Notes under the pieces: generated by a model
The model's input: the letters and a program-made list of their open reading frames with translations, nothing else
Told to the model about the DNA's origin: nothing
Databases searched by the model: none
Shown here: positions 1-49,909 of the stretch, piece after piece
How positions within the stretch are numbered: the first letter of the stretch is position 1
Layout of the letters: each line of letters begins with the position of its first letter
Made by a program: the position numbers and the translations under genes
Assembly (NCBI GenBank): GCA_021432605.1
Contig: MU271162.1
Location: 381,721 to 445,720 of the forward strand
Direction: 5' to 3'
DNA: 64,000 bases
Source: Coniochaeta sp. PMI_546
Taxonomy: Eukaryota; Ascomycota; Sordariomycetes; Coniochaetales; Coniochaetaceae

Positions 1-684
1 CATCACCACTGCCACTCTCATACGAGCCGCCTGGGCACTGGTGCTAGCGCGGTACTCTGACAGCACTGAGGAAGTATGCTTCGGAACAACAGTGTCGGGT
101 AGACAAGCTCCCGTTCACGGTGTCAGCAACATGGCCGGACTGGCCGTGGCCACGGTACCAGTGCGTGTGCGTCTCAACGGACGACAGTCTGTAGCCGACT
201 TTCTCCATGGCATCCAGACGCAGGCATCTGAGATGATAGCATTTGAGCAATTCGGGCTGCAGAATATTTCCAAGCTCAGTGCAGACGCGAAGGCGGCCTG
301 CGACTTCGCTAGTTTGATGATCATTCAACCTGCACAGGCTATGACGTCGCCCGAAGCAGGGCTCCTGCTTCCCGTTGGCTCCGGGGAATCGTCATCAAGT
401 GCTGAGGCGCTTGACGGTTATTTTAGCTATCCTCTCGTCTTCGAGGCCCTCGCGTACCCCAACCGCGTCGACTTAGTCGTTACATACGATGCGAACGTGC
501 TATCGAAGCGACGTATCCAGGCCCTAGCATATCACTTTGAACATGTCCTCAATCAACTGCTGGTCAAGGGCGCATCTGGTACATCCGACTCGGTTCTTGA
601 GAGCGTGTCTGTTGCTGGCTCCTGGGATCTCGACCAAGCCGTGCGCTGGAACAGCTCCGTCAATGTGGACCTAGTCGATTCCTG
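1..684 (+). other. C-terminal half of an upstream NRPS condensation domain
   Basis: The window opens in the second half of a C domain. Visible are the RAAWALVLARYSD helix, the FGTTVSGRQAPV motif near base 80-120, the ATVPVRVR strand and the FSYPLVFEA segment. The HHxxxD half lies outside. It would condense the peptide from an upstream carrier with the residue loaded on module 1, so at least one more T domain or a starter unit exists to the left. It ends at the conserved linker AGSWDLDQAVRWN near base 615-655, which recurs at every module junction. Confidence 0.95.
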
Positions 685-3600: not shown

Positions 3601-6600
3601 TGCCAGTCTGGTCATCGTGCAGCCCGCCAAAGCGGTGTTATCGCTCGATGTGCCTGTCCCGAACGAAAATACACTCCTTCTTCCGGCTGACTTGAAGTCG
3701 CATGACTCGCAGGAGTTCTCTACTGGTGCTTCAACATCAGGCGGATATTTCAATTACCCACTAGTTGTCCAGGTTCTCACCCACAACGACTGCTGGGATC
3801 TGATACTCACATATGACGCAGCTATGGTTGCGGAGAGTCGACTGAAAGTTTTGGTTCATCACCTCGAGCACACTGTACAACAACTGACATCCCTCTCGCT
3901 CGCCAATGCAGCATTAGACAACCTGTCTGTGGCCGGGCCATGGGATTTGGATTGGGCAGCGCAATGGAACACCGCTGATACTACCGCGGTTGAAGCTTGT
4001 GTGCACGACTTGGTGACTGACAAGGCAAACGAGCTTCCGAACCACGAGGCCATTGTCGCCTGGGACGGCAGCCTCAGCTACGCCGAGTTGCAGTGGTTGT
4101 CCACCCTCCTCGGAAATCACCTGACAAACCTCGGCGCCGGGCCAGAGACTCTCGTACCCATTTGCTTCGAAAAGTCCATGTGGGCAATCGTCGCCATGCT
4201 TGGTGTCTTGAAGGCAGGAGCTGCCTTCGTCCCCCTCGACCCTGCCCATTCATACAGCAGGCAACAGGCTCTTATCACACAGGCCGGAGCCCGGCTCATT
4301 CTTGTCTCTTCTGCAACAGCGAATTCTTGCCAAGGCCTAGCCGAACACATCGTTGAGATATCGGCCTCGCAAGTTGGGCGCCTTGCTCGAAATGCTGGTC
4401 GTAGTCCTGCGCAAGCTACGCCATCCAACGCCGCCTACGCTATTTTCACGTCCGGATCCACGGGCAAACCAAAGACCATCGTTGTAGAGCACAGGGCATT
4501 GTCTACAAGCGTACTGAGAAACGGTGTCAGCCACGGATTCAGCCGAGACGCACGCGTCTTACAGTACTCCAGCTTTGTCTTCGATATCAGTTTGGGCGAG
4601 ATATTTGAGACCCTGGCATTTGGTGGGACCATCTGCATTCCGTCAGACAGCCAGCGTCTTCAAGGGGGGATTGCTAGCTTTATCGAAGAGACTCAGGTTA
4701 ATGTAGCCATGCTCACATCGTCGTTTCTCAAAACTCTGAAGCCGGCCGATGCACCATCATTGAAGCAACTCCTCCTCGTTGGGGAGGCACCGACTCAAGA
4801 AACTCTGCAGACCTGGGCTGGCCATGTGGAGCTTGTGAATGCCTATGGACCGGCAGAAGCAGTGGTCTATTGTGCATCTTACACCTACAAGTCCAGCGAT
4901 GAATATGCGACCAATATTGGCGGGAGCACTACAGCGAGTTTCTGGGTCGTCGATCGTGACAACTGCCAAAAGCTGGCACCAATAGGCAGCGTTGGGGAGC
5001 TGGTTGTTCAAGGCCACGCCCTTGCGCGTGGGTACGCGGGGGACGAGGAACTTACCGCTCTCTCTTTCACGGATCCTCTCGCCTGGCTACCATCTTCACA
5101 TGTCAAGGACGGGGACCGCTTCTATAAGACGGGCGACTTGGTCAGATACAATACGGACGACGGCACTCTGGAGTATCTGGGCCGCAAGGATACGCAAGTC
5201 AAGTTGCGCGGACAACGTGTTGAGTTGGGTGCTATTGAACATGAGATCAAGAGTGCGCAGACAACGAAGCAGGTGGAGCATGTCGCAGTTGATAAAATCC
5301 GGTACGGGTCTCAGGAACTACTTGCAGCATTCGTCAAGTTTAGCAACTCCGAAAGCGACAGGGAAGGTGAAGCCACCGAGATACTCCTGCCAATGACAGC
5401 GGATCTGCGCACGTCGTTTGGTGCCATCATCGAGCATCTGAAGGGCCAGCTCCCGAGTTACATGGTCCCGTACATTTTGGTCCCGCTTCGAGATGTACCC
5501 TTCCAGACGTCGATGAAGCTCCATAGGTCGAGGTTGAGGGAATTGGCAGCGTCCCTGACGCACGAACAGTTGCGAGATTATTCCCTGGTTGAAACCGGGG
5601 AAATAGAAGAACCTGTCACTGAGATGGAATTCAACATTCGTGCCGTTTGGGCGCAGGTTCTAGGATTACCCGCAAGTCACATTGGACGTAACGACAGTTT
5701 CCTTCAGATCGGCGGAGATTCGATCGGTGCCATCCAGCTAGTCACAGTCGCGCAAGAGCAGGGCATTAACCTGACCGTTCAAGATATTTTCAACAACCCT
5801 CGCTTGGCAGCAGTCGCCCTTGCAGCTGCCAATGGCCATGTTACCAAATCCTTTGCTACGCAGCCGTTCAGCCTCCTCCGTCACGATAAGGTCGATGACA
5901 TATTAACCACGGTCACTTCTGAATGCGGCATTAACAGACCTAGCATCAAGGACGCGTACCCGTGTACCGCTTTGCAGGAAGGGTTGATGGCTCTAAGCGT
6001 CAAGGAACCCGGGTCATATATCGCACGTCATGTATACCGGTTGTCAGACGTAGACGACGAGCAGAGATTCAAGGCCGCTTGGGAGAGAACACTTGCTTTC
6101 TGCGATAACCTGCGGACGCGCATTGTCCTACACGATGGCTCGTCAATCCAAGCTGTCCTTCAAGAGCAAGCTGCTTGGGAACCAACCGAGGACTTCCACA
6201 GTTTGGTGGCATTCCTTGACGCAGCGAAGACAATGGAGATGCAGTACTGTTCACGGCTCTGTCGATATGCATTCATCTCAGAGCCTACCGGCGCACGGTA
6301 CTTTGTACTGCTCGTTCACCACGCCGTTTTCGATGGATGGGGCATGGGCCTCGTTATGGAAACGCTGTGCAGATTTTACGGCGGCGACGACGCACCTGCT
6401 GTGGAACTGACACCATACGCCCACTTTGTCAACTTTGCCTCCAGCATCGACTTTGAGGCCGCGGAAGGTTATTGGAAGGGACAGCTAGCTGGTGCACAAC
6501 GGGCAGCTTTCCCACTCGCACACAACCGTTCCACAAAACAGGCGTCGACGCAGAAGGCTTCAGTCACTCGCGTCCTAAAGACAAAGATTGACATGGACTC

Positions 6601-9600
6601 ACGTACAGGTGACGCTTCTATCACCAAAGCCACATTCCTGCGGGCTGCATGGGGGTTGTTGCTCGCACGCTACTGTGATACCGATGATGTAACCTTTGGC
6701 ATGACCGTCTCCGGACGGCAGGCGCCATTGCCAGGCGTGGAGAAGGTTACTGGTCCTGCCGTGGCGACAATTCCAGTGCGCCTGAAACTCGATAGGACGC
6801 AGACAATCGCCGACTTTCTGCGTGATGTGCAGATTCAGGCTTCCCAAATGGTATCCTACGAGCAGTACGGCTTACAACGAATCTCGAAACTGGGTCCTGA
6901 CGCAAAGGAGGCATGCGACTTCGCCGCCTTGATGATTATACAGCCGGCGCGTGTCATAGGCACGTTTGAGGCGTCGCTTGGTGCCGGCGGACTGACGGCC
7001 GTCGATCCCGAGGAATACGGTTCTGAGGTTGCACTGGACGGCTCTTTCAACTATCCACTTGTTTTGCAGGCCATAGTCCACAACCAGCATGTGGAACTTG
7101 TCATGACGTACAATGATACGGCAATATCGAAGGACCGGTTGCTGGCTTTAACACACCATCTCGAGCATATCGTGCAGCAGTTGCTTGTGCATGGCGACGC
7201 ACCTCTCAATACACTTTCGACAGCTGGTCCCTGGGATCTGGACCAAGCCAGTAAATGGAACAGTATTGAACCAGCAGTTGTCGATGCTCGTGTGCAGGAC
7301 ATCATCGCACAACGAACCACCGAGACCCCTAGTGCCGAAGCCGTCTTTTCATGGGATGGCACCCTCACGTATTCTGAGCTCGATAGTTTGTCTAGCAAGC
7401 TCGCTGCCAGCCTGGCCGGCATTGTACTCCCAGACTCCATCGTGCCCATCTGCTTCGAAAAATCAATGTGGGCGGTAGTAGCGATGCTCGGCATCCTCAA
7501 AGCTGGAGGAGCCTTTATCCCGATAGACCCATCGCACCCTGAAAATCGCCGCCGGACACTCGTTCGGGAGATCCGTGCTGGCCTGATTCTTGCATCCTCG
7601 GAACATTTGGTAACCTGCAAGGGGCTCACGGATGTGGTGGTCGAGGTATCGGCTGCAAGTCTGGCGCTCTTATCCCAGCCAACTGAGACCAACACGAAAA
7701 CATCAGTTGAAACCACGACTAAGAATATCGCATACGCCATTTTTACTTCGGGGAGCACAGGAACTCCCAAGACTGTGCTGGTTGAGCATGCTGCCTTTTG
7801 TACCAGCTTGATCGCTCAAGGCAAAGCTTTCTCTATGAGCCCGAGCTCACGTCTCGTGCAATTCTCCAACTATGTCTTTGACGTCGCACTGGGTGACATC
7901 TTCATGACACTTGCATTCGGCGGCACCGTCTGTATACCCTCTGATGAGGATCGCATACAGAACATAGCGACCTTTATGTCGCGCGCTAGAGTAACAATCG
8001 CGCAGTTTACTCCCTCGTTTCTGCGGACAATTGACCCAGACGACGTTCCCACACTCGACACCGTGGTCATCGGCGGTGAGCCAGCTACACAGCAGATTTT
8101 GAGCACCTGGTGTGGACGCGTGCAGCTTATCAACGCCTACGGCCCTGCTGAAACGACAATCTGTTGCAGTCATCACCCTTACACGTCCGCTGAAGACTCG
8201 CCAACGAATATCGGCCATGGCCTAAATGCCAGCTGCTGGGTCGTTGATCCGGACGACTACAACGAGCTTGCCCCGATTGGCTGCACTGGTGAACTACTCG
8301 TGCAGAGCCCAGCTCTTGCACGTGGATACGCCAATGACCAGCACCTAACCGACCGTTCGTTCGTCGAAAATGTCAGATGGATGCCCAATATGCATGAGTC
8401 TAGGTTCTACAGGACCGGCGATCTCGTAAAATATAACTTTGACGGGACAATGGAATATGTCGGCCGCAAGGACACGCAAGCCAAGGTGCGTGGACAGCGT
8501 ATTGAGCTCGCCGCCATTGAGTATCATATCAAGAGCGCACATGCGGTAATCGAGCATGTAGCCGTTGACGTGGTCAAGCACAGTGGCCGCGAGTACTTGG
8601 TGGCCGTCTTCAACGTCCAGCGCCTGGATCTAGATGCCGTCCCCAGCAGGACTAGCGACGAGGTTCTCATTCCAATGACAGACGCCCTCCAGGATCTGAT
8701 CGTCTCTGTTGTCGCAGGCCTGGAGAGCGACCTGCCAGCATACATGGTCCCTACCTTCTTCATCCCAGTCCGCGAGATGCCCCTCCAGTCTGGCTCGATG
8801 AAGCTTAACCGCTCGAAATTTCGAGACATCGCCAATGGCCTCAGCCAGGAGCAGCTGCTGATGTATTCGCTCGCACAAGGCCCAAAAGCAGCACCTGTCA
8901 CTGAAACAGAATTCAGAATGCGGGACATCTGGGCGCAGCTGCTCCGACTCCAACCGTCCCAGATCGGTCGAGACGACAATTTTCTGCAAATTGGTGGTGA
9001 CTCCATCAGTGCGATACAGGTTGCTGCACTGGCCCGGCAAGCTGGGATGTCGCTCGCAGTACAAGACATATTTGCAGATCCTCGCCTTTGGGCTGTGTCT
9101 GCAGCAGCTACGGCTGGAAAAGAGTTGCAAGCATACGACACGCCGCCATTCAGCCTCCTTGCGGCGGACGAGGTGGAAACAATCTGCGCGGCTGTCCGGC
9201 GCGAGTGCAAACTGGACGACGAGCACGAGGTCGAGGACGCATACCCATGTACCGCTTTGCAAGAAGGACTGATGGCACTGTCCGTCAAACAGCCCGGCTC
9301 TTACGTCGCAAGACACGTTTTCCGCCTCTCAGAGTCCGTTAGTCTCAACGAGTTCCGACGTGCCTGGGACAGGACTGTCGAGAAATGCGCCAACCTGCGC
9401 ACACGCATCATTATTTCGCCTGCTGGAAGTTCAATTCAAGCGGTGATCAAAGGTCCGGCAACTAGTGACCTGGTCAGCTGCTCCCAATTGTCGGATGCCC
9501 TGGATGTCGCCAAAGCAATGAGGATGGACTACGGCTCGGAGTTGTGCCGAATCCTCATCGTGCAGGAACCCGCCGCACGATATGTTGTGTTGGTTATGCA

Positions 9601-12600
9601 CCACGCCATATTTGACGGCTGGAGTATGGAGATTATCCTTGAGACGCTACGAAGCATGATAGTCGGCAGTCCTGAGCCGGAATTGGGTTCATACGCGAGG
9701 TTCGTCAACTATGCTACCCATCTCAACCAGGCAGCAGCAGCGGAGTACTGGACGTCCCAACTGGATGGTGCTCAACGTGCACCTTTCCCGCAAGCAGTTC
9801 AGACAGTTGCAGATCCACAATCATCGGTACAAGCCGCCACTCGGGTGCTCAACACGACGATCCCTTTCACCAAAGTTACAGTAGACAAGTCCATCACTAA
9901 AGCCACCGTTGTGCGCGCTGCATGGGCGGTAGTTCTCGCGGAGTATTGCGAGACGGACGACGTAACCTTTGGGACAGTCGTCTCCGGTCGTCAAGCCCCC
10001 GTCTGTGGCATCGAGACCATCACAGGTGCCCTGCTGGCTACCGTGCCTGTACGGATGCGCCTCAACCGTCAGCAGTCGGTGGCCAAGTTCCTGCAAAGCG
10101 TACAGACCCAAGCAGCCAACATGGTCCCCTACGAACAATACGGCCTGCGGAATATCTCCAGATTGTCCCAGACGGCCAAAGAGGCGTGCGAGTTTAGCAG
10201 TCTACTCAATCTTCAACCTGCACGTGCTCTAAACTCTGCTCGAATGTCGGCAGAGGCTGCCATGCTGCTGGATGTCGACAAGGCGGACGACGATGGTTTT
10301 ATCGATGATGCGCTCCACGGGTACTTTAACTATCCGTTGGTCCTCCAGGCAGTCATCCATGAAGACAGTGTGGAACTTGTTATTACCTATGACACGACCG
10401 CGCTGTCAGAGAACCGGCTGGCCGCCCTGACCCGCCATCTCGGAAATGTGATCGAGCAACTGGCATTGGGGACGAAAGCGCTCGAAGACATAACCGTTTC
10501 CGGCATGTGGGATCTAAAACAAGCGATGCTGTGGAATAACCCCAAGACCGCGATCGTCGACGCGTGTGTGCATGAGATGATCACCGCCCGAGCTTCCGAG
10601 ATCCCGGATAGCGAAGCTGTCTACGCATGGGACGGTAGCCTTAGCTACCGCCAGTTGGAAAAGATGTCTGATGTTTTGGCCACTCACCTTTCCCAAGAGT
10701 GGCATGTAAATCCAGAAAGCTTAGTGCCTATCTGCCTTGAGAAATCAATGTGGGCAGTGGTAGCGATGCTAGGTGTCCTAAAGGCCGGAGGAGCCTTTGT
10801 ACCACTCGACCCCTCACATCCAACAAGCCGACACCAGGCTGTTCTACAGCAGACCAGAGCCAAACTCGTGATTGTTTCGGCTTCCACAGCGGCCTCTTTC
10901 AAAAACCTGGACGACCAAACGGACGTCGTCGAGCTCTCCGACGCGCGAATGAAACACTTATGCGAGGTTTCAATTCCGGAGAGCCTCAACGCTCAAGTTA
11001 GTCGCCCAAGCAATGCAGCGTACGCAATATTCACGTCTGGTTCCACGGGCAAGCCCAAGACCATTGTGGTCGAGCATTCCGGGCTTTGTACAAGCCTTGT
11101 TGCTCAAAGCAGCATCTTTTCGCAGAATACAGGCAGGGAAACACGATTCCTGCAGTTTGCCAGCTACGTATTCGATGCGGCAGTCACCGAGATTCTCATG
11201 ACACTCCTAGTGGGTGGAACTGTCTGTGTTCCCTCGGAAGTTGAGCGACTGCAGGATATCTCTGGGTTCATCAATCGCTCACGAGCTACGACGGCACTTC
11301 TCACCCCATCATTTGCTCTCACAGTCGAGCCCAGCCACGTTCCAACGCTCAAGACCCTCATCATCGGAGGTGAGCCAGCCACTCGTCAAACAGTCCAGGC
11401 GTGGTACGGGAAGGGTGTGCAGCTCATCAACGCTTACGGACCTGCTGAGACCGTCGTCGCTTGCACTTCCCACATATATACATCTGCCGACACCATCCCA
11501 GCCACCATCGGCAAAGGTCTAGCAGCCAACTGCTGGGTCGTTGATCCAGATGACCATGACCGACTCTCTCCAATTGGTTGTGTAGGCGAGCTTCTGGTCC
11601 AGAGCTATGCTCTCGCTCGTGGCTATGCCAATGAGGATGATCTTACGGCGCGATCTTTCATCAAACGCGTGAAGTGGCTGCCTTCGTCGTGGGTCCAGGA
11701 GGATCAGAGGTTCTACAAGACTGGGGACTTGGTGAGGAACAATTTCGACGGCACCTTGGAATATGTAGGAAGAAAGGACACTCAGGTCAAGCTGCGCGGG
11801 CAGCGGGTTGAACTGGGTGCTATTGAGCATTGTATCAAGGAGGCTGCTCCGCATATTGAGCATGTGGCCGTTGATGTGGTTACTCACGAATCTCGGCAAT
11901 GGCTAGTGGCTTTCCTGAGCTCTAGCAAGTCGGAGGGTAGGAACGACGCCAGGTCACTGAGCACGTTGGAGAATGGGATCAGCGGGAACGTGCTGATGCC
12001 AATGACAAGAGATCTCCACGACTCGTTTGCGAGCCTCACTGCCGACATTGAGCATCGCCTCCCCGCGTATATGGTTCCTGGCCTGTTCTTACCGCTCTGG
12101 AACATGCCATTCCAGACTTCAATGAAGCTCGACCGAAGCGAACTCCGTCGCATAGTCAGTAACATCACTCGCGAGGAACTTTTGAGCTACTCGCTCGCGT
12201 CTGCAGAAAAGGTGGAACCAGCTACCGAGATGGAATTCAGAGTCCGTGACATCTGGGCACGGGTACTGGGTATCCCTCCAGCCAACATCGGTCGACACGA
12301 CAGTTTCCTACAAATTGGCGGCGATTCACTTAGCGCGATTCAGGTCATGACAGCATCACGCGAGGTCGGCTTGATGATTACGGTTCAGGACATCTTCCAC
12401 GACCCGAGATTGTATGCTGTGGCAGGCAGAACTGTTGTCGGACGACTTGAGCACGAGCGTCAGGCCTCGGAGCCGTTTTCTCTAATTCCGGCAGAGAAAC
12501 GAGACAGTGTCGTGGCTGAAGTAATTTCCTGCTGCGCTATTGAGGACCTCCAGCAAGTGGAGAACGTCTACCCATGCACTTCGCTGCAGGAGGGTTTGAT

Positions 12601-15600
12601 GGCATTAGCCGTCAAGCAACCCGGGTCCTACATCTCCAAGAACGTATATACACTGGGTGCGAGTGTGGAAGTAAACCGCTTCAGGGAAGCCTGGGAGCGC
12701 ACACTCGACCTCTGTTCCAACCTTCGCAGCCGTATCATCATGACAGGTGGGGCATCTGTCCAAGCTGTGATCCGAGAACCGGCTGCATGGGAGTCAAGCC
12801 ACGCGAGTCTCGCAGACACTTTGGAGTCCTCCAAGGGTCTCGAGATGCAATATGGCTCTCGCTTATGCCGGTATGCTCTGGTTCAAGAACCGGCTGGGTC
12901 ACGGTATTTTGTACTGTTTATCCACCACGCAGTCTTCGACGGCTGGAGTTTGGGACTGATTCTCGAGTCGCTCCGAGCCATGTACGACGATAGCATTAAC
13001 CCGCCCTTACTGACTCCGTTTGCGGAATTTGTCCGCTACACGACATGCACAGATACACAATCTGCAGCTGAATACTGGACCAAGCAGCTTGAAGGTGCAC
13101 AGGCGGCTACCTTTCCTCAGCTAGACCATGTAGCAAGGACTGAGACCGCATCTCGAGTCTTTGACGCGACGATAGCTATCCCACGCTTGAGTGGCACCTC
13201 CTCGATCACCCAAGCAACAATTTTGCGTGCCGCGTGGGCGTTTGTTCTGGCGCAGTATTGCGATGCAGACGATGTCTGCTTCGGCACCACCGTGTCTGGC
13301 CGGCAGGCACCGGTGTCTGGACTGGAGACCATGGCCGGACCGGCAATTGCTACGGTACCAGTGCGGATCCGGGTCGACAGGTCAACAACTGTAGGTGACT
13401 TCTTGGCCGACGTACAAAGACATGCTTCTGAGATGGTTGCCCACGAACAATATGGACTGCAGAATATCGCCAAACTCAGCACAGACGCCAAAGAAGCATG
13501 CGACTTTACTTCATTGATGGTTATTCAGCCATCGAAACTGGTGGGGAACGTTGCTGGCTCGTCTGACTTCCTCGCGCCTGTGTCCGATGTATCCGACGCT
13601 GGGGACACTTTCACTGGCTACTTCACCTATCCGCTCGTGCTACAAGCCGTGGCCTACGAAGAGCACTTTCAACTGACGCTCATGTTTGACCCTTCTGTTG
13701 TGTCGGAAGATCGTCTCAGGGCTTTATCGCACCACCTTGGCCACGTTATTATCCAATTCCTAAGCCGCCCCGACGTCGCACTCGCGGAAGTTTCCGTGGC
13801 CGGACCGTGGGATCTGTCACAGGCCATCCAGCGCAATGGCGATGCCCCAGAGATTGTGGACGCTTGCGTTCATCAGCTCATCGAGGAGCAAGCCCGCCGG
13901 AGTCCGGATAAGCTTGCAATACATGCATGGGATGCTCAGTTCACATATGCCGAAATGAACGCGGCAGCGAATCGGTTGGCTCATCACCTCGCCCGGAGCG
14001 GCGTTCGCACTGGTGATCTTGTGCATGTGTGCTTTGAGAAATCCGCCTGGTATATCGTAGCTATACTCGCCATCAACAAAGCCGGAGCTGCTTGGGTGCC
14101 TTTGGAGCCTGACCATCCGACTCTACGACACAAGCAAATCGTCCAGCAGACTGGTGCGAGATTTGCCCTGACTTCGGTTATGCAGGGCTCGAAATGCGAG
14201 AATCTGGTGGACCACGTTATTGTGGTATCGCAGCAGCTTGACAAGGATCTTTCCGTTGATCTGGGGGGCGCACCACCTGATAGAGTGACTGAGGTCACAC
14301 CAGATCATGCAGCATACGTGCTGTTCACGTCCGGAAGCACTGGTGTGCCCAAAGGCTTTGTACTGCAACACCGGGCTGTCAGCACCAGCCAAACGGCCAT
14401 CATCAAACGGCTCGGACTTGACAAGGTGCCAGACCTTCGGATGCTTCAGTTCGCGTCCTATGTATTTGATATGAGCGTGGGTGAGATCCTGCTCACTCTG
14501 CTCGCTGGTGGACAGCTCTGTGTTCCACCAGAAAGCACCAGACTGAACGGCATCGACACCTTTATCCGGGCCACGGACACCAACTGGCTCTTTCTAACAC
14601 CTGCGTTCGCCAGGACCTTACGTCCGGATGATGTCCCCGGTGTGGAGGGCATAATACTAGCCGGTGAAGCCGTGGGACGTGATCTATTTAACCTATGGGT
14701 CAATCGTGTCCGCCTGGTTAATGGATGGGGTCCAGCTGAGACCTGTGTTTGCAGTACGCTTCATGAGTTCCAGGCCGATGATTCCCCTCTGAGTATTGGC
14801 CGTCCTGTCGGCGGATTTTGCTGGATTGTCGACCCCCAGGACCCTTACAGGTTGGCTCCTGTGGGCTGCGTGGGCGAGGTCGTCATTCAAGGACCCACCA
14901 TTCTCCGGGAATACCTTGCTGACGAGGCCAAGACCAAGGCGGCGACCATGACAGACTTGCCAAACTGGGCGCCCAAACGGGATGAAGCAGGCTGGAACCG
15001 CATCTTCAAATCCGGAGACTTGTGCGTGTATAACAGCAATGGCGGCATTGATTTTGTCACTCGTAAGGATACGCAGGTCAAGATCCGCGGCCTAAGGGTT
15101 GAGCTAAGCGAAGTCGAACATCATCTCCAGTCCGTTATGGAGGCTGAAGGCGCGCGGCAGGTTGTGGTGGATGTGCTTCGGAACGGGGACGCAGCCACAT
15201 TGACAGCGTTCTTATGTTTCAACGACGATACGCACATATCCACGGATGGGAACTACGACCCCAAGACCTTGTTTCTGCCGCTTACGGCAAGCTTGAAGAG
15301 CCAGCTTCTAGGCATTGTGGGAAAGCTGAATGTCTTGCTTCCCAGTTACATGGTCCCGGCGCTTTTTATTCCTTGCCAGTACATACCGTCCATCGGGTCC
15401 ACAAAGGTCGACAGGACCGGATTGCGCCGCGCCGCGGGTCTCCTTGAAAACTTGGTGGCATACACTCTGGCGGAAGACGAGAAAAGGCCGGCGGAAACAC
15501 CGACCGAACGAGCATTGCAAGACATATTTGCGAGTGTCCTGAAGGTACCAGTTGCTTCAATCGGGCGAGACGACAATTTCTTGCGCCTAGGCGGCGACTC

Positions 15601-36600: not shown

Positions 36601-39600
36601 ACTGGACGGATATTTCAGTTATCCTCTTGTACTACAAGCTGTTACATACCCAGACCACGTTGAGCTAGGGCTGACCTACAACTCGTCGATGTTGGATGAG
36701 GCCAGACTCAAGGCCTTGGTCACGCACTTTGGGCACGTCATTACCCAGCTTCTGAATGGGAGTCAAAATGACACAAACATCGGCAGTCTCTCTATTGCTG
36801 GCCCGTGGGATCTAGAGCAGGCATCACGCTGGAACACAGCTGATATCACCGTCGTTGAGGCGCTAGTACATGAGCTGGTCGCTGAGCGGACTGTCCTAAC
36901 GCCAGAATACGAAGCAATCCATGCCTGGGATGGTATACTATCGTACAAGGAGTTAGACGACATGTCGACGGTCTTTGCGACACACCTCTCAAACATTGGT
37001 GTCACGGCAGACGCCCTAGTTCCCATGTGCTTCGAGAAATCGATGTGGGCTATCGTTGCCATGCTCTCGATCCTCAAGGCTGGTGGTGCCTTTGTTCCTC
37101 TCGACCCATCACACCCAGCTGAACGTCGCCGCAGCTTGATCCAGGAAGCTAAATGCCATGTCATTGTAGCTTCCTCATCTCTTGCGGCATCCTGCGAAGG
37201 GATGACACATGCCACGGTCGAAATCTCTTCCGCCAGTCTGTCGCAGCTGGCCGCCACGATCACGGGGCCCAACGGCACAGGAAGTCTCAGCACGCGGGAT
37301 GCGCCAACCACGCCGCACAACGCTGCCTACGCCATCTTCACATCAGGGTCTACCGGCAAACCAAAAACAATTCTGGTCGACCACGCAGCTATGTGCACAA
37401 GTGTACTAAGAAACGGCATCGAGCATCGGATGAGCCGAACATCGCGTGTGTTGCAATACTCCAGTTTCGTTTTCGACATCAGCTTGGGCGAAATCTTCGA
37501 GACGTTGACTTCCGGAGGGACCGTCTGCATCCCGTCAGATTCTCAACGACTGCAGGGCCTGGCAACCTTTATGGAGGATGCGCGGGTCAATACAGCCATG
37601 TTAACCGCATCGTTCCTCAAAACCTTGAACCCTGCGCATGTCCCGTCTCTGAAGCTGCTTCTACTCGTTGGGGAGGCGCCCTCCAAGGAAACGCTGCGCT
37701 GTTGGGTTGGCCACACCGAAGTGGTTAACGCGTATGGACCTGCGGAGGCTGTTATCTATTGTGCATCCCACACGTACAGATCAATTGACGAGTCGCCTAC
37801 GAATATTGGCAGAAGCACCACGTCTAACTTCTGGATCGTGGATCAAGACTTGCAACTAGCTCCGGTGGGCTGCATTGGAGAGCTTCTCGTGCAGGGCCAC
37901 GCCCTAGCTCGTGGCTACGCCAATGACGATGACCTCACGGGACGATCTTTTTTCAAGTCCGTGGACTGGCTGGCTTCGCCTCAAGGTGACCAGAGATTTT
38001 ACAGAACAGGTGACCTGGTGCGATACAATTCTGATGGCACCATAGAGTATTTGGGCCGGCGGGACACCCAGATCAAATTGCGCGGGCAGCGGATTGAGCT
38101 CGGCGCCATCGAGCACAGCATTAAGAGCTTTAGACGCGACGTGTTTGAGCACGTCGTGGTCGAAAAGGTTACGTACGGGTCTCAGGAGCTTCTTGTGGCG
38201 TTAGTCAACTTCCACAAACAGACATACTGCAGCGAAGGAGACGCGTTAGTCGTCCCAATGAGCGATACTCTCCGGGAAGTCTTTGTCGCCCTTGCGGCAC
38301 ACTTGCGGACAGCCCTCCCACTTTACATGGTGCCGGCGTTCTTCGTGCCGCTGAGGCAGATGCCCTTCCAAACCTCGATGAAGCTTCATCGATCGCGGTT
38401 AAGGGACATCGCCACCGGGCTCACGCAACAAGACTTGCTAGGCTACTCCCTCGCTACTCCTGGCATGTATGTCGCGCCTGTAACGGAAACGGAGATCGAA
38501 ATGCGGGATATTTGGGCGCGAGTGTTGGGAATTTCGGATCTCAATGTCATCGGACGGCACGAGAGCTTCCTTGAGATTGGAGGTGATTCGATCAGTGCTA
38601 TTCAACTAGTCGCGGCTGCACGCGATGTGGGATTGCAGCTCACTGTGAGCGACGTCTTCCGCAATCCGACACTTTCAGCTGTCGCCGCTGCTGCTATTGC
38701 CAGTGTTGATGACGAGGATCGCTACTTATACTCGCAGCCGTTTAGTCTGCTTCAGAATGGGGTGTATGATACAATCTGCACCGCTGCTACCTCCGACTGC
38801 GATCTCCGGCCAGGCCAGGAGGTCAGAGATGCCTACCCGTGCACTCCATTGCAGGAAGGACTTATGGCTCTAGCGGTCAAGCAGCCAGGGTCTTACATCG
38901 CAAAGAACGCATGGAGACTGGCTGAATCCATTGACGCAGGTCGCTTTCGAAGAGCCTGGGAGAAAACTGTCGATGCCCTCGATATACTCCGCACGCGCAT
39001 CATCCTCCGCGATGGAATCTCGTTTCAGGTGGTCGTCAACGAACCTCACACGTGGGAGACAACCGATGATCTCACGACGGCACAACATGCAACAGCTACG
39101 GTACAGATGCAGTACGGATCCCGACTCTGCCGGTACGCCTTAGTGTCTGACTCCGGAGCTCACTACTTTGTCCTCGTAATGCATCACGCCATTTTTGACG
39201 CCTGGAGCATGGGACTCATGCTGCAGACTTTAGACGCGCACTACAGGGGTCTCCAGACACCGTCATTGACACCGTATGCCAGCTTTGTCAGCTATACCAC
39301 CCAGATAGACACTGCAGCTGCAGCAGATTTTTGGAAAACACAACTCAAAGGGGCACAGCGCGCTTCGTTCCCACGAACGGACCAAATTTCTGCTACGGAC
39401 GTACCAGAGGCAGCAACTACCAGGGTGGTGCAGAGAGCCATATCTACTCCTCAGCAAGTCAACAATTCCATCACAAAGGCAACAGTCCTGCGAGCGGCGT
39501 GGGCCGTGGTCCTAGCGCGATACAGCGACACCGCCGACATCTGCTTTGGCACGACTGTGTCTGGACGACATGCACCGGTCCTAGGAGTTGAGACTATGGC

Positions 39601-42600
39601 CGGCCCCGCTGTAGCTACTGTCCCTGTGCGGATCAGGCTCGAAGAGTACATGCAGCAATCGGTTGCAAGTTTCCTCCACCGCGTTCAGACCCAAGCGTCT
39701 GAGATAATGCCTTACGAGCAGTATGGCATGCGCAATATATCCATGCTGAGTGCTGAGATCAGGGAGGCCTGCGACTTTGCTAGTCTCATTGTTGTACAGC
39801 CAGGGCAGCCAGGCTCAGATGACCCATCAGCCCCCGCTAGACAGCTACTGCTGCCAATCGACGCAGAGCTTTCCGGGACGCCTGGATCTACCGGGGACGG
39901 CTACTTCACTTACCCTCTTGTTTGCCAAGCTGTTACTCATCCAGACCGCGTGGATGTAGTACTTACCTACAATACAGCTGTATTGTCCGAGGACCGGATC
40001 GTCGCTTTAAGTCGTCATCTTGAACATGTCGTTCAGCAACTTGTTACTCAACCCGCTTCTACACTTGACATGATTACCATCGCTGGACCTTGGGACCTGG
40101 AGCAGGCCTCGCTTCGGAACACGGCCGACAGCTCACCTATGCAGTTCTGCGTGCACGACCTGATCTCTGATCGTGTCGCCAGTGTGCCTGTGGACCACCC
40201 GGCCGTGTGCTCTTGGGATGGCGCCCTTACCTACCGCCAATTAGACCATATGTCTGATATGTTGGCTATCCATCTAACCCAGCTCGGCGTTGGTCCGGAA
40301 ACAATGATCCCAGTCTGCTTCGAAAAATCCATGTGGTCTATCGTTACACTGTTAGCCGTCATGAAGGCTGGTGGAGCCTTCGTACCGCTCGATCCGTCGC
40401 ACCCGACTGAGCGCCACCGTTCATTAGTCCACGAAACAAGGGCACGGATTATGGTGGTGTCTCCCTCAACCGCTGCTCTTTGCGACGGTTTGACCGAGAT
40501 TGTCGTCGAGGTTTCTCCTGCTAAGATGGAGGGCTTGTCATCGGCGCTGGTCACAAGCAAGCAGACTGCCGTGGCGCTTACCCGCCGCTGTACCCCTTCC
40601 AACACTGCGTACGTCATTTATACATCTGGGTCTACCGGAAAGCCCAAGACTATTGTGGTCGAGCACTCAGCACTAGCCACTAGTCTTCTAGGTGACGGGC
40701 GGGCCTACCACTTCACTCCAAAGTCGCGTGTCCTCCAGTTCTCCAGTTACGTGTTCGACGTCAGCCTCAGCGAGATATTTGAGACGCTAGTCTTTGGGGG
40801 CACAATCTGCGTGCCTTCCGACAGGCAACGCTTAGAAGGCGGCATCGCGAGCTTCATCCGCGATAACGAGGTTAACACGGCACTTTTCACATCCACGTAC
40901 TTGCGCACCCTGGATCCATCAGATGTACCATCACTAGAGTTGCTCATCCTCGTCGGTGAGGCACCCACTAAAGAGATACTAGACACGTGGCATGGCAGAG
41001 TGACCGTGGCTAACGCATACGGTCCCTCCGAGATTTCCATCTTTTGTACCTCCCACGTGTACCGTTCGACAACCGAGCCCCCGACCACCGTCGGTCGTGG
41101 GTTTGCTAGCGCATGTTGGATCGTGGATCAGGGTGACCACAACCGCCTGGCACCGATTGGCTGTACCGGGGAGCTTATGGTGCAGAGACAGATGGCTCGT
41201 GGTTATCTCAACGATGATTCGAGCACCGAGGCGTACTTTATCAAGGCCGTCACATGGCTGCCCCCATTGTTGCAGGACGATACGCGGAAGTTTTACAAGA
41301 CGGGCGACGTGGTGCGCTATAACTCTGATGGCACGATTTTGTATCTTGGACGACGAGATACACAAGTCAAGGTGCGGGGTCACCGTGTCGAACTCGGGGA
41401 GATTGAGTACACACTGAAGCAGTGTCTCCCTACCGTCCAGCATGCCGCGGTTGACTTGATTCGCTTCCAGGACTCGCAAGACCAACTCGTCGCGTTCTTC
41501 AACTTCTCCGCTAAACAGGTCGATAAGGAAGTCAGCGCAGAGAATTACGATGGCTGGCTTCTACCGCTTGAAGGTGACCTTCGGCTCACTATCACCGCGG
41601 CCGTGGAGGAACTATTGCGCAAACTGCCAAATTATATGGCCCCATCTACCTTCCTACCGCTCGCGTACATGCCGCTTCTGACGTCAATGAAGCTGAACAG
41701 GGCCGAGCTGCGCAAGTTCGCCAGTGGGCTTACCAAGAAACAGATGCTTGAATACTCGCTCGACAACACTAAATGGGTTGAGCCTGTCACCGAGACAGAG
41801 CTCAAGCTGAGGGAGATCTGGGCGCAGGTTCTTCGGATGGAGCCGGAGCAGATAGGCCGACACGACAGCTTCCTACGGCTCGGGGGTGACTCCATAAGTG
41901 CTATACAGCTTGTGACCATAGCACGGGGTGCTGGTTATGAGCTGTCCGTCCATCAGATCTTCAACGACCCGCGCCTTTCAGCTGTGGCCGCAAAGCTGAC
42001 AAACACCGGCGGGAAGCATAACGAAAGGTACGATATCGAAGCGTTTGATATGGTTCCAACTGAAGGCCTAGAAGCTTTCAAGGCTTCTTTGGCTCTTCAA
42101 TGTCAACTGTCCAATGGTGGGGACGACATCGAGGATATCTATCCATGCACCCCCTTACAGCAGGGTCTCATGGCTCTCTCAATAAAGCAACCGGGGTCTT
42201 ACATCGCCAGGAAGATTTACCGACTACCTCATGATATGGACATGAACCGTTTCCGGGATGCATGGCAACGCACGGTCGCCGCTTGCACGAACTTGCGTAC
42301 CAGGATCGTCAACCACAATGGCGAATCATTACAGGTTATCGTCCGAGACCACGATACATCCTGGGAGTCTTTCAGCTCCATGCGCTCCACGGCAACGCTC
42401 ACGGCAGCGGCAGACGAGGTGGAAATGCGATACGGATCGCGCCTATGTCGGTGGGCAGTGGTTTCAGAAGGACGGAGTGTGCCTCAATACTTCGTGTTGA
42501 TTATGCACCATGCCGTCTTTGACGGCTGGAGTCTGGGCCTCATGCATGGCACATTGCGCACCTTCTATGAAGGAGGCCCTACGCCAAGTTTGGAACCATA

Positions 42601-45600
42601 CAGAAATTTCGTCAACTACACCACCCGCCTCGATCTCGATGCGGCTGCTGCTTTCTGGATCGAGCAACTGGACGGCGCAGAGCGTGCATCGTTTCCAGTG
42701 TTGAAACATGGTAGTTCGTTGGAAGAGGGGGTTCGAGGCCGTGTTTTCGGCGCAACAATCGCCCTTCCACGCTCGACTGACAATTCAATCACGACCGCGA
42801 CTATCATGCGGGCTGCCTGGGGACTAGTTCTGGCTCGTTACTGCGATACGGAGGATGTGTGCTTTGGCACCACCGTGTCTGGTCGCCAGGCGCCTGTTGC
42901 TGGAATTGAAAGCATGCCCGGGCTAGCGGTGGCTACTGTTCCTGTCCGCATGCGTCTCGGAGACAGACAACAGACGGTGGCCGAATTTCTGCACACCGTA
43001 CAGGTGCAGGCTTCTGAAATGGTAGCCTTCGAGCAGTATGGTTTGCGTAACATCTCTAGGCTATCTCCAGAGGCCAGAGAGATCTGCGACTTTGCCAGTT
43101 TATTGCTCATTCAGCCTGGACAAGAGGGGAATTTGGGGCAATCCGCGCTGCTGCTACCTCTTGACAAGCAAGCTTCCACAGCCGAAGACGGATCTGGTGA
43201 TTACTTCAGTTACCCACTCGTTCTGGAAGCTGCTGTCTACAGTGGTCGCATGGAGTTGGGTTTCACATACGACGCTTTGGTCGTTTCACAAGAGCGTCTA
43301 GAAGCCTTGTCCCACCACCTCGACCATACTGTCCATCAACTCATCTCCGCAAATAGCGGCGCTACACTTGGTTCGTTGTCTATTGCTGGTGCTTGGGACT
43401 TCGACCGATGTAAGCGCTGGAACTCCTCAGATACAAGCAAAGTCGATGCCTGTGTACATGACCTGGTTGCCGCTCAAAGTGCCCAGGTTCCCAGTGGCCA
43501 CGAAGCCCTGTTTGCTTGGGACGGTGTTCTCACCTACCGCGAACTCGATCTCCTCTCGTCCCAGCTAGCAACCAACCTTGTGCAGCAATACAAGGTCGGA
43601 CCGGAGACAATGGTTCCCATATGCTTCGAGAAGTCTATGTGGGCCATTGTCGCTATGCTGGGCGTTCTGAAAGCGGGAGGCGCATTTGTCCCCCTCGATC
43701 CGACATACCCAGTTGGCCGGCGTAAGGCGCTTGTACACGAAACCAGCGCGCTGTTAATTCTCACTTCCGCGGCGACATGGCGTTCTTGCCAAGGCTTGAC
43801 GGAGCATGTGTTTGCGGTATGTGCATCGTCGATGTCGCATTTATCACACAGCAGTGGCAAATATCTTGCTCAGTCGACAGTCAAGCCATCCAACGCTGCC
43901 TACGGTATTTTCACATCCGGATCTACCGGTCAGCCCAAGACAATCGTGGTCGAACACTCCGCCCTTTGTACCAGTGTGACTCGCAATGGTACAGCTCACC
44001 GGATGAATACTGGATCACGTGTCTTGCAATACTCGAGCTTTGTGTTTGATATCTGCTTGGGGGAGATCTTCGAGACTCTCGCCTTTGGAGGCACAATATG
44101 TATTCCGTCAGAATCGCAGCGTATGGGCATTGCAAGCTTCGGCCGTGACGCACGGGTGAACGTGGCGATGTTAACCGCTTCATTCCTTACTACTGTCAAG
44201 CCGGCTGACCTGCCATCCGTCAAGCTTCTCCTCCTTGTCGGCGAGGTACCAACCAAGGAGGTTCTAGAGACATGGCACGGGCACGTAGAGGTCATCAACG
44301 CTTACGGCCCGGCAGAGGCCGTCATCTACTGTGCGTATCACCCGTATACGTCCCGTCACGACGCCCCAGGTTCGATTGGGAGGCCTACCACAGGAAGCTT
44401 CTGGGTTGTTGACCAGGACAACCACCAACGACTGGCGCCGATTGGTTGTACCGGCGAGCTCTTGATCCAAGGGCACGCCCTTGCACGCGGCTATGCCAAC
44501 AACGACAAAGGCACGTCACAAGCGTTCCTTTCGGCGGTCGACTGGTTGCCGCCCTCCGACCAAAGACTCTACAAGACGGGCGACCTGGTAAAATACAATA
44601 TGGACGGCACGCTCGAGTATCTCGGCAGAAAGGACACACAAATCAAATTACGTGGCCAGCGCATCGAGCTGGGCGCCATTGAGCACAGTATCAAGACGGC
44701 CCGCGACGCAATTGAGCATGTGGCGGTAGACGTGGTCAGAGGTTCGCTTGTGGCATTCGTCAACTTCAGCAACATGGATAGCGCAGATCAGGGCGACAAC
44801 GATCAGCTAATTCTCCCATTGAGCGACGGCCTCCGTGAACTGTTTGCAGGTGTGGTCGAGGATATTAGCAAGCATCTGCCTACGTACATGGTGCCAAGGT
44901 TATTCATACCACTACGACACATGCCAATGCAGACTTCCATGAAGCTCAATAGGGCAGGGCTTCGGCACTTGATGAACGGCCTTACTCAAGAAAACTTGGC
45001 CAGCTTTGCGCTCGCGGACCAGCGTATCAAAACCCCACCCGTCACCGACTCCGAGATCACGATGCAGAAAATCTGGACCGAAGTGCTTCAAATGCCCGCG
45101 GCCCAGATCGGTCGGGACGACAGCTTCCTCCAAATCGGAGGCGACTCAATCAGTGCTATCCAGGTGGTGGCCCTGTTGCACGAGAAATTCGGAATGGCAC
45201 TCACTGTGCAGGACATCTTCAGTGATCCTCGCCTGTCAGTCGTAGCCACCAAGATCAGTCGCGACAGTGCAGCCCAAAGCTACCACGCAGAGCCTTTCAG
45301 TCTCTTGCCACTCGAACCAGCGGGTGCTGATTATGTCGAAGCTACACGCGAATGCGGCCTGGACGTTGAAGCTGGGCAGGAGATTGTTGACGCTTATCCA
45401 TGCACGGCACTTCAAGAAGGATTGATGGCTTTGACTGTCAAGCAGCCAGGTTCATATATTGCTCGACTCGTCAACCGACTGAACGAGTTCGTCGATGTGG
45501 ATCGTTTCCAGACGGCCTGGGAGCAGACGGTGACAGTGTGTGAAGCCTTGCGTACACGTATCATCATCCTCAAGGGCATATCAATTCAGGTTGTGATAAA

Positions 45601-48600
45601 GGAGCCAGTGGTTTGGGATTCCGTCGAACAGGTCGACTTGAATAACTTGGAGATGGGATATGGATCACGCCTCTGTCGCTTTGCTCTGACGGCGACCGAG
45701 GACAATCACTCGCCTCACTTCGTGCTCATGATGCACCATGCTGTGTTTGACGGCTGGAGCATGGGACTGCTATTGGATACGCTGCAAAGCTTCTACGATG
45801 CCACTGATGTTGTGCCTGCTCTAAAGCCGTACTCCAGCTTTGTCAACTATGTCAAACAGACGGACTCGACTGCAGCAGCGGACTACTGGAGAAAGGAGCT
45901 GGATGGTGCACAACGTGCTCCCTTCCCGCATGCAGATCATCTCACGAGATCCGAAGTCATGGAGAACCGCACTCGTCCCCAGCTGATGGATATGACTATC
46001 AGTTTTCCACGATCCCACCACTCGTCGATTACCGATGCCACAGTCATCAGAGCGGCATGGGCATTGGTTCTGGCACGTTATTGCGATGCAAACGACATCA
46101 CATTTGGAACGACGGTCTCAGGTCGACAAGCTCCCCTGTCCGCCATCGATAGGATAGCAGGGCCAACTGTTGCTACTGTTCCTGTGCGGATGGAGATCGA
46201 CAAGACCCGAACTGTGCTTGACTTCCTCCGGGAAGTCCAAGAACAAGCGTCCGAAATGATCCCTTTCGAGCAATACGGTCTGCAGAAAATATCTAGACTA
46301 TCCAGAGACGCAAGAGAGGCGTGCAATTTCGGCAGTCTCCTTATTATCCAACCTGGGCAGGCTACTGGCACGGAAGGAGCCGCGTCCACAGGATTACTTC
46401 TCCCGGTCGACTCACCGACAGAGATTCCAGGCGGCTACTTCAACTACCCACTTGTATTGCAGGTTATGACGTATGACGGACGGATCGATCTGCTGTTTAC
46501 CTACGAAAGCAGTGTCATCGCACAAAGCCGTCTGGATGCTCTCACCCATCATCTCGAGCACGTCATTCAGCAGCTCTGCAGAGATAGTGATTCGATGCTT
46601 GTTGGATCTCTTTCGGTCGCTGGTCCATGGGACCTGGACTTGGCTACCCGTTGGAATATCACAGACACAACACCTGCGAATATTTGCCTGCACCACATGA
46701 TTGCCGAACAGACTGTCAAAACACCGTCTCACGAAGCCATCTATTCTTGGGACGGAAGCTTCACATACGCGGAACTAGACCATACATCCACGCTACTTGC
46801 TAACCAGCTCGTCCGCCTCGGTGTAGGGCCTGAGACCATGGTCCCGCTCTGTTTCGAAAAGTCGATCTGGGCCATAGTAGCCATGGTAGGGATCATGAAG
46901 GCAGGAGGTGCCTTTGTCCCTCTTGACCCGGAGCATCCAGTGAGTCGGAGACAAGAGTTGCTCCAGGAGATCAAGGCACGCGTTATGGTTGTGTCGTCGT
47001 CTCAGATGACATCCTGCACAGGAGCAGCCAAGCATATCATCGAGCTTTCATCCAGTAGTGTCGTGCACTTGGCTAGGGCCGCTGCGACGAACTTACAATA
47101 CCCCTTCGTCACCCCAACAAATATGGCATACGCGATATTCACATCGGGATCGACTGGCAAACCGAAGACAATTACCGTAGGGCACCGAGCCATCAGCACG
47201 AGCATCCGCGCCATTGCCCGTTCTTGCGCAATCGGCACGGATTGCCGAGTTCTACAGTTTTCAAACTTCGTGTTCGACGTATGTCTCGGCGAGATCTTCG
47301 CGTCGCTTGTGGCTGGAGCTACAATTTGTATTCCCTCTGATGCCGACCGTCTGGAGAACCTAGCCCGCTTTATTTCGCTAAGCAGCGTTACCACGGCATT
47401 CTTGACACCTACTGTGGCCAGGATATTCGGACCGGACGATACGCCGTCTCTGAAAACCCTTATCCTCGGAGGCGAGGCACCGACGAGGAACAACATGGAT
47501 GCTTGGTACGGTCAGGTAAGCCTCCTCAATGGATATGGGCCTGCGGAAGCATGTGTTTACGCCACGATGCACGCGTATGACTCGCCTCATGAGTCCCCAT
47601 CCACTATTGGACGCGGCCTTAGTGTCGACTGCTTTATTGTTGACCCGGACAATGCCCACCACCTAGCACCAGTTGGTTGCATCGGCGAGTTGGTCGTTTA
47701 TGGACACTCGGTTGCGCGGGGATATACCAACGATTCGGAAGAGACTACTCGTGCGTTCTTGAAGAAAGTCGACTGGCTACCGCTCGCAGCAGATGATCGG
47801 GTATTCTACAAGACGGGTGATCTGGTGCGCTACGATTTCACAGGCACTATGGAATACCTCGGGAGAAAGGACCGACAGGTCAAGTTGCGCGGACAGAGGA
47901 TTGAACTAGGCGCTATCGAGCACGGCATTAAGAAGGCGCATCAAGCTGTCCAACACGTTGCTGTCGACAAGGTTACGGTTGGATCACGGGAATGGCTCGT
48001 TGCGATGATCACCTTCAGCAATATGCCAAGCCCGGAGACGGAGGATGAGGTCTTCATCCCGGTAACACAATCTCTACGACACTCACTCGCCGCAATTGCC
48101 GACAGTTTACGAAACGACCTTCCTGCCTACATGGTTCCCACATACTTCGTGCCACTGTATCGCATGCCGTTTCAAACCTCTATGAAATTAGACCGCTCTA
48201 AGCTACGCGAGATCGCGAGCCAACTGACAGCTGACGAGCTACTTCGGTATTCGTTATCTGATACAGCGAAGGTAGCAGCATCTACCGAGATGGAACTCAG
48301 GGTACGAGACGTGTGGGCGCAGGTGTTGGGCACGGATCCGGAGCATATCGGACGACGTGACAACTTCCTGCAGATTGGAGGTGACTCCATAACCGCCATT
48401 CAAGTGGTCACCGCTGCGAGAGCGGCTGGTATCTCTTTCACAGTCCGGGACATCTTCGCCGATGCACGGCTGTTTGCGGTGGCCGCCAGGGCTACCAGCG
48501 GGCGGCCTCATGTTTCGTATGACACGCCACCGTTCGGCCTACTCCCGGGAGACCAAATTGACGGGCTTCGATCAGCTCTCGCGAAGGTCTGCGAATTGGA

Positions 48601-49909: not shown

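Follow-up and report, generated by a model that had tools for sequence, protein, structure and literature searches.

A pair of giant nonribosomal peptide synthetase genes in Coniochaeta sp. PMI_546, proposed to form one two-protein assembly line for a long Aib-containing peptide

Two giant synthetase genes on one contig

The window analysed here is a stretch of 64,000 nucleotides from the ascomycete Coniochaeta sp. PMI_546 (contig C20, MU271162.1, positions 381721-445720, in a 33.5-Mb genome of 24 contigs), and it contains the larger part of a giant nonribosomal peptide synthetase (NRPS) gene, designated gene 2, which probably works together with a second giant NRPS gene lying upstream, gene 1. 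A single open frame runs on the forward strand from the first bases of the window to a stop at 49909 (window positions 2-49909, the 3′ part of exon 2 of gene 2). Domain profiles placed in it the end of the condensation (C) domain of module 3 (2-547) and the complete modules 4-18, each consisting of an adenylation (A), a thiolation (T) and a C domain (575-49828). A whole-genome search for the Pfam family Condensation gave 15 matches in the window and one crossing its left edge, in agreement with this module count. The observations of the initial annotation, which had reported one open frame of nearly 50 kb with fifteen complete A-T-C modules, a partial C domain and more modules upstream, were thus confirmed, and its interpretation of the gene was partly supported.

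The domain scan of the whole gene including the upstream sequence, as that annotation had suggested, showed that gene 2 occupies 369622-431629 of the contig (62.0 kb, + strand) and encodes a spliced protein of 20,630 aa with the order T0-C0-(A-T-C)x18, in which about 115 N-terminal aa precede T0. The description of the gene as intron-free held inside the window but not for the whole gene, as a frame change at contig position 372195, upstream of the window, is best read as a 115-bp GT-AG phase-0 intron. A shared intron fits, because the gene calls of two relatives, P0020 and P0252, start just past this position. From the sequence we infer two exons with one intron to the left of the window and none inside it. 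A remnant of an A domain was suspected before T0 and rejected, since the profile match was too weak (-0.5 bits for gene 2, with 8.5 bits as the best of nine).

Gene 1 lies on the same strand at 316698-353158 of the contig, encodes 12,136 aa and has the order A-T-(C-A-T)x10-C, opening without a C domain. From the sequence, its start was read as two exons, the first of 62 bp, separated by an intron of 50 bp. The pair amounts to 29 A domains and 32,766 aa with a joined order of T0-(C-A-T)x29-C, and the break between gene 2 and gene 1 falls in a C-A linker. In both the C and the A trees, modules of one gene are interspersed with those of the other. Self-comparison with a threshold of at least 150 bp (words of 20) returned one match only, 911 bp at 74% identity and reported once per direction; the modules are not near-copies, and therefore an assembly artefact of copied modules is unlikely.

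Modules, codes and core motifs

The modules in the window were delimited by domain profiles together with the A-domain codes, all on the + strand. They begin with module 4 (575-3874, DVAYVGGIYK), module 5 (3893-7171, DIGMLVAVYK), module 6 (7184-10450, DVGQVGAICK) and module 7 (10460-13747, DATLIGAVAK), followed by module 8 (13760-17026, DMGFIAGVCK) and module 9 (17039-20332, DVGFLAGVFK), both with codes resembling those for 2-aminoisobutyric acid (Aib). Module 10 (20351-23590) and module 11 (23603-26875) share the code DIGMLVAIYK, module 12 (26888-30181, DLGFLAGVFK) is again Aib-like, and module 13 (30200-33448, DATLIGAVVK), module 14 (33461-36739, DASMVGGIYK), module 15 (36758-40030, DIGMLVAIYK), module 16 (40043-43330, DVSLIVAIFK), module 17 (43346-46564, DIGMLVAIYK) and module 18 (46580-49828, DVGFIGGVYK) complete the protein. 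The code type D-x-G-F/W-x-A-G, which we take to be Aib-like, was found three times in the window (modules 8, 9 and 12, the number given by the initial annotation), five times in gene 2 and in 8 of the 29 codes of the pair; the code of gene-1 module 2 was misread by the script at one position. None of six code strings was found in the literature searched, and signature comparison is described as being of limited use for such synthetases (in the accessible part of PMC12192607), for which reasons residue prediction beyond "Aib-like" was abandoned.

The A3 motif is present in all 29 A domains and GGDS in all 30 T domains of the two proteins; HHxxxDG was found in 25 of 30 C domains. The exceptions are HHAIFDA in C10 and C15 of gene 2 (both in the window), SHAAIDG in C0 of gene 2, and QHAVFDG and HHALFDL in C10 and C11 of gene 1. 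In the accessible text on Trichoderma, HHxxxDA is linked to module skipping (PMC12192607). One or both genes could accordingly be inactive or skip modules and give a short product, a view to which the HHxxxDA motifs of gene-2 C10 and C15 and the QHxxxDG of gene-1 C10 lend some weight. The complete conservation of A3 and GGDS speaks against it, as does P0252, a colinear metagenome relative that keeps modules 1-4 of gene 2 at 60-72% identity (A1 62%, C1 64%, A2 72%, C2 65%, A3 61%, C3 63% and A4 60%). We consider this improbable; it is compatible with a two-protein line and was judged apart from the other alternatives.

Terminal condensation domains and charged ends

For comparison we assembled 285 related proteins from the best 120 of 2,923, 208 and 400 matches in three listings. 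No near-identical protein was among the relatives listed, and as none of them exceeds 7,989 aa, whole giants could not be compared. A C-domain profile was trained solely on 123 internal C domains of 29 hand-chosen peptaibol-like relatives among the 285, and C domains covering less than 85% of the profile, including C0 of gene 2, were left out. The internal C domains of the pair (n = 27) scored 557-612, and those of the relatives had a median of 598 and a 5th percentile of 542. With this profile the terminal C domain of gene 2 (HHAVFDG) scored 586 and that of gene 1 only 418. The 19 terminal C domains fell into two groups, seven at 577-639 (P0126 639, P0222 602, P0009 598, P0010 592, P0015 591, gene 2 586 and P0129 577) and twelve at 378-524 (P0004 524, P0003 511, P0122 492, P0227 486, P0231 443, P0002 419, gene 1 418, P0019 409, P0001 408, P0014 402, P0007 382 and P0011 378). 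The initial annotation had correctly described gene 2 as ending in a C domain rather than a reductase. This domain is not an odd release end, as its score is that of an elongation domain and it most likely depends on the A-T of gene 1.

The two proteins also differ at their ends. Gene 2 closes with a lysine-rich tail (...VKSLKKKKEKGKGKGKAASTRS; window 49796-49906, +), a proposed docking tail: a net charge of at least +7 was reached in nine of its 20,606 windows of 25 aa, and these are the last nine. In gene 1, a net charge of -10 or lower occurred in four of 12,112 such windows, all starting at residues 18-21. A basic tail (+6 or more) was carried by five of the seven elongation-like terminal C domains (gene 2, P0015, P0126, P0129 and P0222), by none of the 12 diverged ones and by none of 331 internal C ends (Fisher p 0.0018 for elongation-like against diverged terminal C domains, relatedness ignored). 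Acidic starts of -10 or lower were found in 4 of 15 A-first chains of peptaibol type (a class delimited with a profile built from genes 1 and 2 themselves, at a score of 500) and at none of 326 internal junctions; with a cut-off of -8 the counts were 5 of 15, 4 of 326 and 0 of 99 for other A-first NRPSs. The most acidic A-first starts were those of P0231 (-15), P0021 (-13), gene 1 (-11), P0004 (-10), P0005 (-8) and P0002 (-7). The remaining nine peptaibol-type chains start at -6 to -1, and most of them look like gene-call fragments beginning within a C or A domain.

The basic end of gene 2 and the acidic start of gene 1 are probably a docking pair, a putative role suggested by their charges. 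Electrostatic contacts between docking ends are known in bacterial systems (accessible part of PMC9113145), and that review contains none of the words "fungal", "fungi", "lysine" and "acidic". Among the listed titles and abstract openings of the literature searched (at most 20 of up to 497 per search), no charged-tail docking pair in fungi was found.

FastTree placed the terminal C domain of gene 2 among internal C domains of both genes of the pair (support 86). The terminal C domains of P0126 (80) and P0129 (99), which carry lysine-rich tails as well, grouped with internal domains of their own lineages, and those of P0015 and P0222 fell together, along with internal domains from other proteins, in a group of weak support (66). 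Inspection of the tree, in which the terminal C domains with such tails are scattered, did not support a single ancestral split, though no formal test was made. In the module trees, P0126 from Aspergillus recurvatus (lysine-tailed) adjoins P0021 from A. fischeri (acidic start), and the lysine-tailed metagenome protein P0129 adjoins P0122 from Dothideomycetidae sp. 11243, whose terminal C domain is diverged; because they adjoin, these halves may have been drawn from one module pool. P0126 and Sarocladium implicatum P0222 resemble gene 2 in their lysine-tailed, elongation-like terminal C domain, and P0222 also in its T0-C0 start, but P0222 and P0126 have only 3 and 5 modules, respectively, and among the matches listed no partner gene was seen for either. 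Strain No.11243, to which P0122 drew attention, makes FR901469, which was rejected as a counterpart since its 12 residues (PMC4384479) fit neither 18 nor 11 modules. P0004 and P0226 are filed under Quercus suber (cork oak); they are close to fungal NRPSs and most likely come from a fungal contaminant.

Gene cluster around the pair

A map of 32 frames scanned with Pfam, in which multi-exon genes are easily missed, showed further biosynthetic genes to the left of gene 1 (contig positions). A reducing polyketide synthase (PKS) with KS, AT, DH, methyltransferase, ER, KR and ACP domains lies at about 282.9-290.8 kb (-, domain profiles), followed by an AMP-binding acyl ligase at 292.7-294.0 kb (+, Pfam). 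Next come a TqaM-like class II aldolase-fold protein at 294.4-295.3 kb (-; match to the solved TqaM, E 1.5e-131), a TqaL-like 2OG-Fe enzyme at 297.0-298.2 kb (+; solved TqaL, E 2.1e-128), a second 2OG-FeII protein at 300.9-301.5 kb (-, Pfam) and a HAD hydrolase at 302.6-303.5 kb (+). The best solved match of the last is a haloacid dehalogenase, alias L-azetidine-2-carboxylate hydrolase (E 5e-58), and it is by inference TqaF-type. An ABC transporter (305.6-310.5 kb, +, Pfam) and a thioesterase match scoring under the curated cut-off (314.0-314.5 kb, -, Pfam) complete this side. The stretch between gene 1 and gene 2 contains an ankyrin protein, an ABC transporter and a second thioesterase match that is likewise below the cut-off, as well as 60 N (C20:359152-359211), either an assembly gap or a masked stretch. 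The second giant, the Aib genes, the PKS and the acyl ligase had been missed by the initial annotation because they lie outside the window.

Aib is made from valine by TqaL, TqaF and TqaM (accessible part of PMC11880133). In efrapeptin producers and Trichoderma the three genes are described as not all together (accessible part of PMC12192607), whereas the TqaM-like, TqaL-like and HAD genes of this cluster fall within a single 10-kb stretch (C20:294409-303542), with the PKS and acyl ligase adjoining. Judged by their homology, the TqaM- and TqaL-type enzymes and the HAD hydrolase would serve Aib synthesis.

A proposed two-protein assembly line

We propose that gene 2 and gene 1 are the upstream and downstream halves of one two-protein nonribosomal line, which we regard as likely. 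The order gene 2 to gene 1 is suggested by the facing ends of the proteins: the final T-C of gene 2 lacks an A-T partner, and the opening A-T of gene 1 lacks a C domain. The acyl step of the proposal is modelled on the echinocandin and emericellamide systems. The reducing PKS would make an acyl chain, which the acyl ligase would activate and load onto T0; C0 would hand it to module 1, and gene 2 would then extend the chain by its 18 modules. The terminal C domain of gene 2 would couple the 18-residue chain to the Aib-type residue carried by the opening A-T of gene 1, while the basic C-terminal tail of the first protein and the acidic N-terminal tail of the second would keep the two attached to each other. 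Gene 1 would contribute 11 residues in all, and the product would be released by its diverged terminal C domain or by a thioesterase-like protein. The predicted product is an N-acylated peptide that contains Aib and has at most 29 residues.

Alternatively, the two genes may be independent synthetases, gene 2 for an N-acyl peptide of 18 residues and gene 1 for one of 11, with release or cyclisation by the terminal C domain of the respective protein. Both proteins do end in C, and fungal cyclic-peptide NRPSs are described as generally single, C-terminated proteins (accessible part of PMC8949500); moreover, Tolypocladium ophioglossoides has NRPSs of 10 and 16 modules in one cluster, for which the accessible text suggests no cooperation (PMC4517408). 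On the other hand, the terminal C domain of gene 2 scores as an elongation domain and groups with internal C domains of the pair, gene 1 has no acyl entry although the ligase and the PKS are found on the gene-1 side of the gap, and the two proteins have charged ends. We hold independence to be rather unlikely. A line in the reverse order, in which gene 1 starts with a free amine and its terminal C domain feeds T0-C0 of gene 2, would agree with the T-C opening of gene 2 and with gene 1 ending in C and lying upstream on the same strand. It is disfavoured by the terminal C domain of gene 1 being the diverged one, by T0 having no A domain in a cluster that does contain an acyl ligase, and by the basic and acidic ends, which would not meet; we rate it as highly improbable.

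Several points weigh against the line running from gene 2 to gene 1. Release is its weakest point, because the terminal C domain of gene 1 matches bacterial C domains before TqaA; both terminal C domains match the solved TqaA but rank it below bacterial C domains, so that a cyclising activity would be putative, and the terminal C domain of gene 1 has no preferential match to any fungal cyclising C domain. The border between the two classes of terminal C domains is close to 542, the 5th percentile for internal C domains of the relatives, and P0004 (524) is not far from it; moreover, the 29 training relatives were chosen by hand, and the peptaibol-type class was defined with the pair itself. P0009 and P0010 have elongation-like terminal C domains without a basic tail, and lysine-rich ends are found outside this class of NRPSs too (P0053, P0039) and may be unrelated to docking. 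In Aspergillus (P0126, P0021) and among the No.11243-like proteins (P0129, P0122), the two halves stem from separate species or samples, and joint action of the two partner types is putative in every case. Sequence alone defines the start of gene 1, and the adjacency of the two genes depends on the assembly because of the 60 N between them. Finally, the two HHxxxDA domains, C10 and C15 of gene 2, may mean skipped modules, and the product may therefore occur in shorter forms.

We lean slightly towards a broader view, in which fungi have recurrently split giant synthetases between C and A, with a lysine-rich end and an acidic start docking, here for a 29-residue N-acyl Aib peptide.

Comparison with known systems

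The pair shares with the long peptaibol synthetases of Trichoderma, whose NRPSs are among the named relatives in the matches listed, several Aib-type A domains, C-A-T repeats and a similar protein size. It differs from them in having T0-C0 instead of an N-terminal KS-AT-T loading part (gene 2 starts with about 115 aa, T0 and C0, and gene 1 with A), in comprising two proteins with 29 A domains, and in lacking a C-terminal reductase, both proteins ending in C and a short tail; a reductase in trans was not searched for. It is therefore not a classical peptaibol synthetase. The T0-C0 start and the acyl ligase in the cluster are those of a lipo-initiated system, with putative loading by the ligase. 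Echinocandin-type NRPS P0053 likewise has a T0-C0 start and a C-terminal C domain, as in gene 2, but is a single protein of six modules, and its terminal C domain belongs to another class (127 vs 647 bits with a profile of the present genes). A close counterpart is the arrangement of T. ophioglossoides TOPH_03035/TOPH_03025 (10+16 modules), where two giant peptaibiotic NRPSs, a PKS and transporters also share a cluster; one line is not proposed in the accessible text (PMC4517408), and we liken the two by cluster content.

Trichoderma tex1 is reported to have 18 modules (PMC4517408, accessible part), and the longest peptaibol NRPS gene in the accessible part of a 2022 review is 69.5 kb with a 20-residue product (PMC11610996), so that gene 2 alone, at 62.0 kb, is not longer. 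A 29-residue product would exceed the 5-21 residues given for peptaibols (PMC12734927, accessible part). No 29-module fungal NRPS was found in the listed titles and abstract openings of the literature searched, where the one match to "29 modules" was a transcriptome paper. Like the initial annotation, we could match the locus to no known product, and no characterised cluster with the same module order was found in a comparison made without MIBiG or antiSMASH.

If the proposed line is correct, the length of a fungal peptide is not bounded by the size of one protein, and partner genes are worth looking for when genomes are read. An NRPS with an elongation-type terminal C domain and a basic tail would then signal that its partner, a protein with an acidic start, has been missed, and the charged ends would offer a simple and testable docking pair for building fungal lines.

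Other genes in the window and the genome

Smaller NRPS frames were observed elsewhere in the same genome, on contigs C5, C6, C8, C16 and C21 (e.g., C21:236564-249065). Downstream of gene 2, the window contains Pfam matches to a fungal rhodopsin domain (51228-51677, -), PepX_C (55636-56343, -), FAD_binding_3 (59338-59967, +) and Fungal_trans (62419-64000, +). All four are probably outside the cluster, yet the last, as a regulator, could belong to it.
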